The notes beneath the pieces were generated by a model. It had not been told where the DNA came from. It saw nothing but the letters and a program-made list of their open reading frames with translations, and did no database searches. Made by a program: the position numbers and the translations under genes. From Candidatus Nitrosotenuis sp. (GTDB lineage Archaea > Thermoproteota > Nitrososphaeria > Nitrososphaerales > Nitrosopumilaceae): a stretch of DNA of 46,796 bases. Below, one piece after another: positions 45,208 to 46,796 of the stretch. The stretch lies in NCBI GenBank assembly GCA_016844685.1, contig JAENJF010000003.1, positions 1 to 46,796 of the forward strand, given 5' to 3'. The stretch's first letter is position 1; each line of letters starts with the position of its first letter.

Positions 45208-45345
45208 TCAACTAGTGAATTCTGTAGGATTGCTTTCGAATTTTGATTTGCAGTGTGGACAGCAAAAATAGAAATCCTGACCATTGAACCTTGATTTTAC
45301 CGAACCTTTTTGTATTTCCGTTCCACATACAGGATCTTTTGGCAT
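45208..45345 (-). CDS. YHS-domain (TRASH-like) small metal-binding protein, absent from ORF track
   Basis: 45 codons: MPKDPVCGTEIQKGSVKSRFNGQDFYFCCPHCKSKFESNPTEFTS*; canonical DPVCG...F.G..YYFC...C...F...P pattern. Confidence 0.88.
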   Translation of the reverse strand: MPKDPVCGTEIQKGSVKSRFNGQDFYFCCPHCKSKFESNPTEFTS

Positions 45346-45382
45346 ATCGTGATATGACCAATACAGAAATTTAAGAACAGAT

Positions 45383-45398
45383 CTTTACAATTGTAAAG
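45383..45398. promoter_or_regulatory. 16-bp perfect palindrome CTTTACAATTGTAAAG (copy 1)
   Basis: Between divergent YHS gene and zinc-ribbon gene; contains TACAATTGTA. Confidence 0.75.
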
Positions 45399-45467
45399 TA
45401 CAGTCATTAAATAAATCAAAAACATACTATTCTGGTGGACAGCCAACACATAGAACAACCTGATCCG

Positions 45468-45596
45468 ATGAAACATTGCCAAGTAGATGAAATTAGAATC
45501 TGCACAAGATGTGGTTCAACTAATGTCAAAATAGACGGAGATACTATTACCTGTAATGACTGCAACGCAATTTTGTGTTTTAAACATAAAGAATAA
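45468..45596 (+). CDS. 42-aa zinc-ribbon protein, absent from ORF track
   Basis: MKHCQVDEIRICTRCGSTNVKIDGDTITCNDCNAILCFKHKE*; CxxC...CxxC; in-frame GTG alternative at 45435. Confidence 0.65.
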   Translation: MKHCQVDEIRICTRCGSTNVKIDGDTITCNDCNAILCFKHKE

Positions 45597-45607
45597 CTCA
45601 AATTATA

Positions 45608-45623
45608 CTTTACAATTGTAAAG
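45608..45623. promoter_or_regulatory. 16-bp perfect palindrome CTTTACAATTGTAAAG (copy 2)
   Basis: Identical to copy 1; 39 bp before the 45663 start codon. Confidence 0.75.
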
Positions 45624-45662
45624 ATATCATTTCATATATCCTATAATTTCAAGTGAATAATA

Positions 45663-46145
45663 ATGAAACAAATCTACAGTATATCGTTGTTTGTAATAAT
45701 TGGTTTGAGTATGACTTTACTTGCCTTTGCATTCACACAAAAAGCTGAGGCTCAATCCATGATGGGAATGTGCAGTATGATGAACAAAACACCAAAAGAC
45801 GTGACAATAAGAACAGCGTCACCACAACTAGTCAAAGCTGGTCAAGAGGCAACCATAACTTTGCTAATCAAAGACAAGACTACCAACAAGCCGCTCCTTG
45901 ATGCCCAAGTACAAGTCATGATAGAGCGTGGTCCCTCAATGTCCACAATGGATATGATGGGATCAATGATTTTAGCACAGGAAATTGGTTCTGGAAAATA
46001 CCAAGTCAAGTTTATGCCAGACAAAGAAGGCATCTATACCATTCACACGCATGTAATACCAGATGGCAAGTCAATGATGAGTATGATGAACAATCACATG
46101 GATGTGGGAATAATTGCAAAACAATCTGGTAAAATCTTCAAATAG
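45663..46145 (+). CDS. Secreted Met-rich protein with YtkA/FixH-like beta domain
   Basis: Signal peptide; SPQLVKAGQEATITLLIKDKTTNKPLLDAQVQVMIE...GSGKYQVKFMPDKEGIYTIHTHVIPDGKSMMSMMNNHM. Confidence 0.78.
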   Translation: MKQIYSISLFVIIGLSMTLLAFAFTQKAEAQSMMGMCSMMNKTPKDVTIRTASPQLVKAGQEATITLLIKDKTTNKPLLDAQVQVMIERGPSMSTMDMMGSMILAQEIGSGKYQVKFMPDKEGIYTIHTHVIPDGKSMMSMMNNHMDVGIIAKQSGKIFK

Positions 46146-46170: not shown

Positions 46171-46796
46171 ATGAAAGAAAATGAATCAAAATCAAAAGGC
46201 TCGAAGAAGACAAGGCTATTCATCATTGTTATTGCAGCTGCAATAGCAATAGGAATTGCATCTGCAGTTGTTTTAGCAAAAATTACCATTCAAAATCCTG
46301 AAGATGCTGATGATCCTAGAACGGTATTTTGGCGACATATACATGGCCTTGGAATTGATCCTTCCGACAGAAACATTCTGTACATAGCAACGCATGGCGA
46401 CTTTTACCAAAGTGTAAACGGCGGTCCACCAGTCAAAGTAGATGAGCAAAGAGCTGATTACATGGCATTTAATGCTCCGTATGCTCAAGGTGTGCCACTT
46501 TATGCAAGCGGGCATCCAGCAACTGGCGGAAACACCGGACTAATCAAAAGCACAGATGGTGGAAAAACTTGGCAACAGGTTGCAACAGTACTAGACCCAC
46601 CAGTCGATTTTCATGCAATGGGTGTAAGCAAGTCTGATCCAAATCTGATAATTGGGTTTGATAGTGCTGGAAGAGGTCTTTTCAAAACTATTGATGCGGG
46701 ACAAAACTGGCAGACATTACAATTTCCAGAATATGTTTCAGCACTTGCTATTTCTCCAAGTGATCCCAATGCGGTATTTGCTGGAACTGGAAAGGG
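46171..46796 (+). CDS. Membrane-anchored BNR/sialidase-like (F510_1955-type) beta-propeller protein, truncated at right edge
   Basis: TM RLFIIVIAAAIAIGIASAVVLAKI; HIHGLGIDPSDRNILYIATHGDFYQS; LIKSTDGGKTWQQVA; LFKTIDAGQNWQTLQ; no stop before 46796. Confidence 0.82.
   Translation, partial: MKENESKSKGSKKTRLFIIVIAAAIAIGIASAVVLAKITIQNPEDADDPRTVFWRHIHGLGIDPSDRNILYIATHGDFYQSVNGGPPVKVDEQRADYMAFNAPYAQGVPLYASGHPATGGNTGLIKSTDGGKTWQQVATVLDPPVDFHAMGVSKSDPNLIIGFDSAGRGLFKTIDAGQNWQTLQFPEYVSALAISPSDPNAVFAGTGK

Follow-up and report, generated by a model that had tools for sequence, protein, structure and literature searches.

The closest described systems are those of Pyrococcus furiosus CopR (PF0739) and Saccharolobus CopR-CopT (SSO2652), in which a regulator combining an AsnC-type HTH with a TRASH domain is encoded divergently from the P1B ATPase gene copA, and one motif, a weak semi-palindrome with TTnnCA half-sites and a 3-bp centre directly upstream of BRE/TATA, recurs at several copper genes. 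In P. furiosus, CopR binds TTNNCAWWWTGNNAA directly upstream of BRE, activates copA in the presence of copper and blocks TBP/TFB at its own promoter, thereby repressing itself (PMC7830388). The energy metabolism of ammonia-oxidizing archaea, microbes of global importance, is heavily copper-dependent. In one of them, Nitrososphaera viennensis, the motif TTCSGSMTTTGWACYANT was found in promoters of genes up-regulated under copper limitation, and what controls the cop genes was left unsettled in that study (PMC7785015).

The AsnC-type HTH joined to a TRASH domain, the divergent copA, the sharing of one motif by several copper genes and the position of TTnnCA half-sites directly upstream of BRE/TATA all recur in the Nitrosotenuis-like archaeon studied here. 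Unlike in Pyrococcus and Saccharolobus, the palindrome is strict, 14-16 bp long with a 2-bp centre (TTTACA-NN-TGTAAA), and its spacing to the TATA box is a constant 9 bp; the targets also differ (YHS, zinc-ribbon, YtkA-Met, F510_1955, DsbD and DoxX proteins), and the His-rich tail seen in that comparison is absent from the regulator. In the features that could be compared, the layout agrees with that of Pyrococcus CopR, though palindrome and spacing are stricter. The N. viennensis motif likewise marks copper-responsive promoters of an ammonia-oxidizing archaeon (copC/D, the dsbD operon), but it is a different sequence and an imperfect palindrome (PMC7785015). Judging by the openly available literature, the operator, the fixed geometry of its promoters and the breadth of the regulon are new for ammonia-oxidizing archaea.

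The window, i.e., the whole stretch of 46,796 nucleotides that was analysed, carries two identical copies of the 16-bp palindrome CTTTACAATTGTAAAG at 45383-45398 and 45608-45623, as the initial annotation of this DNA had reported. No other near-match with up to 2 mismatches occurs in the window, the chance expectation being 0.05, and 1 of 100 shuffles of the window reached two such matches. The spacings given in that annotation also held: 37 bp separate palindrome 1 from the ATG at 45345 of a gene for a 45-aa YHS-domain protein (45208..45345, minus strand; Pfam YHS 3.5e-12) with the TRASH-like cysteine spacing C7-X20-C28-X3-C32, and 39 bp separate palindrome 2 from the ATG of a gene for a 160-aa, Met-rich secreted YtkA-like protein (45663..46145, plus strand; PF13115 2.3e-7) with 17 Met among the 129 aa past the presumed signal peptide. 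To these we add that palindrome 1 lies 36 bp upstream of the GTG start of a gene for a 53-aa zinc-ribbon protein (45435..45596, plus strand), which matched no Pfam family above cut-off. As palindrome 1 faces the starts of both the YHS and the zinc-ribbon genes, it is a divergent promoter element. In all three promoters a TATA element starts 10 nt past the 14-mer TTTACAATTGTAAA (hereafter +10): the TATA-like TTAAATT of the YHS gene at 45368..45374 on the minus strand, TTAAATA of the zinc-ribbon gene at 45407..45413 and TCATATA of the ytkA-like gene at 45632..45638, the latter two on the plus strand. Operator 2 is one-way, with a TATA at +10 on its plus side only. Judged from this arrangement, palindrome 1 serves the YHS and zinc-ribbon genes and palindrome 2 the Met-rich YtkA-like gene. 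Behind the latter, across a gap of 25 bp, begins a gene for a beta-propeller protein of the F510_1955 family (46171..46796, plus strand; NCBIfam NF045728 8e-39), the match falling under the whole-protein cut-off of NF045728 because the gene is cut by the end of the window; it is probably co-transcribed with the ytkA-like gene, so that palindrome 2 probably serves it as well.

The draft genome (1.33 Mb, ~16% missing) holds five TTTACANNTGTAAA sites, four of them exact copies of the 14-mer and the fifth, TTTACAAATGTAAA, with a different centre, while the reversed palindrome used as a control had no exact match in it. Each of the five adjoins copper-handling genes. The three sites outside the window lie between copA and a divergent gene for a regulator of 146 aa that joins an AsnC-type HTH to an archaeal TRASH domain (contig C54), ahead of a cluster of dsbD - YHS - glutaredoxin-like genes in which a second TRASH-Lrp regulator and an F510_1955-like protein are encoded too (C5), and between a gene for a YHS-containing P1B ATPase and one for a small TRASH-like protein (C133). 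A regulon confined to the window is ruled out by these sites, and the cluster is not self-contained as first described: three further promoter regions belong with it, and the F510_1955 gene beyond 46145 is probably included. The initial proposal of a copper regulon under palindrome control, with the genes of the YHS, zinc-ribbon and Met-rich proteins among its members, is supported. That its regulator lies outside the window had been recognized, and the TRASH-HTH regulator with the palindrome in its own promoter, one of the alternatives that it had been suggested to look for, exists: the candidate is the C54 protein encoded beside copA.

The HTH of this protein is of the AsnC/Lrp type (PF13404 2e-13, PF13412 9e-13), its nearest solved structures are Lrp/AsnC proteins, and its C-terminal region is a TRASH domain (PF08394 1.1e-6). 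The TRASH cysteine motif is defined as C-X19-22-C-X3-C; in the regulator the cysteines C99-X20-C120-X3-C124 are invariant among 19 sequences, and so is the HTH. The CopA encoded divergently from it, an arrangement found in many relatives as well, carries HMA domains with CxxC and a CPC motif.

The window cluster was also compared with its counterparts in relatives. In G076 the order is YHS - site - zinc ribbon - site - F510_1955, so the layout around operator 1 is kept; a ytkA homologue was not detected in this genome, and F510_1955 stands directly behind the second operator. In G017 a single bidirectional site separates the zinc ribbon from ytkA-F510, and in G069 (whose zinc-ribbon protein is 70% identical) and G386 the zinc-ribbon gene is divergent from copA, the two sharing one operator. 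From its placement in these four genomes, where its orthologues are present, the still unnamed zinc-ribbon protein is a recurring component of the copper regulon. Fifteen further genomes in the family sample have orthologues of the ytkA-like gene, and 12 distinct orthologue promoters bear the site, with TATA at +10 in 10 of them.

Of 121 genomes of the family, 55 carry the 14-mer, with 117 copies in all compared to a single occurrence of the reversed control, and the regulator, counted from strong matches only, is present in 52. Site and regulator are found together in 43 genomes, the site only in 12, the regulator only in 9 and neither in 57 (Fisher p 3e-13, phylogenetically uncorrected). Several of the sites in the 12 site-bearing genomes without a detected regulator are matches in coding sequence, and at least 5 of the 9 regulator genomes without the exact 14-mer have TTTACANNTGTAAA with another centre. 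Among 79 regulator loci taken across the class from named genomes (Nitrosotenuis, Nitrosotalea, Nitrosarchaeum, Nitrosopumilus, Nitrosocosmicus and other Nitrososphaeraceae), 53 have an exact TTTACANNTGTAAA within the 130 bp upstream of the regulator (0.03% in shuffles), mostly 31-44 bp ahead of the start; some regulators of Nitrososphaera, Nitrosopumilus and Nitrosotalea in this set have no upstream site. A census of the genus, counted by hand, gave 51 sites (control total 8), 39 of which stand directly before the regulator or before a regulon gene with TATA at +10, and several of the non-fitting sites are in coding sequence.

The distance from operator to TATA box was then compared. At 100 of 114 target promoters (88%) the TATA starts exactly at +10, other offsets averaging 2%, and after thinning by similarity the count is 66 of 75. 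The element T.WW.TA at this position is conserved in its five fixed columns over the 114 promoters (T 93%, A 85%, W 100%, T 99%, A 95%, as aligned). These statistics use only loci fetched prior to the composite searches, those fetched by the composite being left out because of circularity. In the reading proposed here, each target promoter is a fixed composite of TTTACANNTGTAAA, 9 bp and a TATA box (TTAARTA), so that some two helical turns separate the centre of the palindrome from that of the TATA box downstream, the palindrome standing immediately above BRE. With 3 mismatches allowed, this composite gave 43 matches in its own genome and the reversed control 58 (both strands); as the two are indistinguishable, only hits with 0-2 mismatches were used. 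Among 300 genomes of the phylum, 25 carry the exact composite, at ~80 places compared to 2 for the control, and all 25 belong to two families of a single order. In genomes of the second family (f3) both geometries, that of the targets and that of the regulator, recur at the genes for the YHS protein, the YHS-ATPase and the regulator. In the own genome, a degenerate operator (TTGCCACTTGTAAAG...TTAAATA, TATA at +10; L006 1176-1205 = G000:C5:3825-3854) lies upstream of the second TRASH-Lrp regulator with 2 mismatches to the composite, and so the two paralogues may cross-regulate.

Regulator promoters are built otherwise: 10 of 65 have a TATA at +10, and in most a TATA-like element starts between about +3 and +6. 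This TATA is usually ~6 bp nearer, against the operator, and autorepression is therefore predicted; since the TATA in regulator promoters of the Nitrosopumilus type is found near +10, it would not be universal.

The sites, their conservation, their linkage to copper genes and their spacing are observed. We consider it very likely that both palindromes of the window are operators of a copper regulon bound by a dimeric regulator of the CopR/CopT type, with a winged HTH of the Lrp/AsnC family and a TRASH domain; binding by the C54 protein, copper as the signal and the direction of control are what we infer. By analogy to Pyrococcus, the regulator, encoded outside the window and divergently from copA, would when metal-loaded most likely activate the genes of the YHS, zinc-ribbon, Met-rich YtkA-like and F510_1955 proteins, its other likely activated targets being copA, the dsbD-YHS-glutaredoxin cluster and the cluster of the YHS-ATPase and the TRASH-like protein, and it would repress its own promoter. 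Target promoters with TATA at +10 and a closer TATA at the regulator fit such an activator of its targets that represses itself. That geometry alone would set the sign across ammonia-oxidizing archaea, TATA at +10 meaning copper activation and at about +4 to +6 autorepression of the regulator, on an operator core convergent with that of CopY, is a rule of our own proposing to which we would give an even chance. In N. viennensis copA2 rose under copper limitation and not excess (PMC7785015), which counts against a simple copper-excess model; given this response and a Nitrososphaera locus without a site, that lineage may differ.

The same regulator on the same operator could instead repress its targets and be released from DNA by copper. 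This mode has been proposed for the closely related CopR of Thermococcus onnurineus, and in gel shifts Pyrococcus CopR bound DNA less well with metal present (PMC7830388). Nevertheless, in 88% of targets the operator keeps a constant distance on the upstream side of BRE/TATA, which is the place of an activator; as a repressor would tolerate many positions, usually overlapping TATA or the start, the fixed spacing favours activation. Moreover, activation of copA was seen from knockouts in Saccharolobus, Halobacterium and Pyrococcus, and we regard target repression as unlikely, if worth keeping in mind. The question becomes testable with the geometry at hand, by shifting one element by six base pairs.

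In a further reading, the regulon would respond chiefly to a different soft metal or to thiol/disulfide stress, copper playing a secondary part. Pyrococcus CopR responded to silver too in gel shifts, and targets in relatives include DsbD, DsbA-like and DoxX proteins, a DegP-like protease, rhodanese and ferric-reductase-like proteins. Thiol-redox enzymes are, however, expected partners of copper stress, and the recurrent targets include CopA with its HMA CxxC and CPC motifs, a plastocyanin-like protein and a multicopper oxidase, which makes a different main signal rather improbable.

The initial annotation had drawn attention to the cop-box of CopY-type repressors, and its core TACANNTGTA is indeed identical to the CopY core. 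The resemblance to bacterial CopY/CopR (BlaI/MecI-type) systems goes further, the Lactococcus copB and yahC operators containing the identical 14-mer (PMC7253601), the one relevant paper, on CopY, that turned up when open-access papers were searched for the 14-mer and variants of it. Of the CopY operator consensus RNYKACANNYGTMRNY the core fits, and the flanks of the 16-bp palindrome mismatch R at position 1 and Y at position 16. Control by a CopY/BlaI-type repressor is not supported: the protein encoded next to the site combines an AsnC-type HTH with a TRASH domain and belongs to a family unrelated to CopY, the site position fits an activator, and PF03965 (Penicillinase_R/BlaI/CopY) at E <= 0.001 had no match in the draft genome (~16% missing) or in other sampled members of the genus, a PF03965 protein above cut-off being present in only 6 of 121 family genomes. 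We hold a CopY/BlaI-type repressor to be very improbable, and the 14-mer shared with the Lactococcus CopR operators probably reflects convergence between unrelated regulator families. Chance palindromes in AT-rich intergenic DNA, for which lone matches within coding frames could be cited, are a negligible explanation in view of the 117 occurrences versus 1 of the control, the linkage to copper genes and the fixed TATA spacing. Such lone matches are exemplified by the sites without a regulator in a small-genome marine genus (g19; L032-L036), which were rejected as chance, lying in coding frames with no TATA.

The palindrome, 9 bp and TATA, together with a candidate regulator, predict copper regulons directly from genomes, and the composite signature also picks up unnamed small proteins, e.g., the 53-aa zinc ribbon (window 45435-45596; L027, L243, L291), which may act as a copper chaperone or sensor. 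Genes fronted by the site in other genera include those for multicopper oxidase, plastocyanin-like, DsbA-like, DoxX, DegP-like and ferric-reductase-like proteins. In some relatives (L041, L050, L149 and others) the operator also precedes genes for DoxX, rhodanese, an MFS transporter and a universal stress protein, whose role in copper handling is not obvious. Genomes of one other genus (g12; G046, G059, G074 and G092, e.g., loci L044, L048, L049 and L050) have 6 to 11 exact 14-mers each, mostly packed within 15-25 kb, forming a dense copper island in which they front genes for multicopper oxidase, plastocyanin-like, DsbA/DsbD-like, DegP-like and Met-rich proteins.
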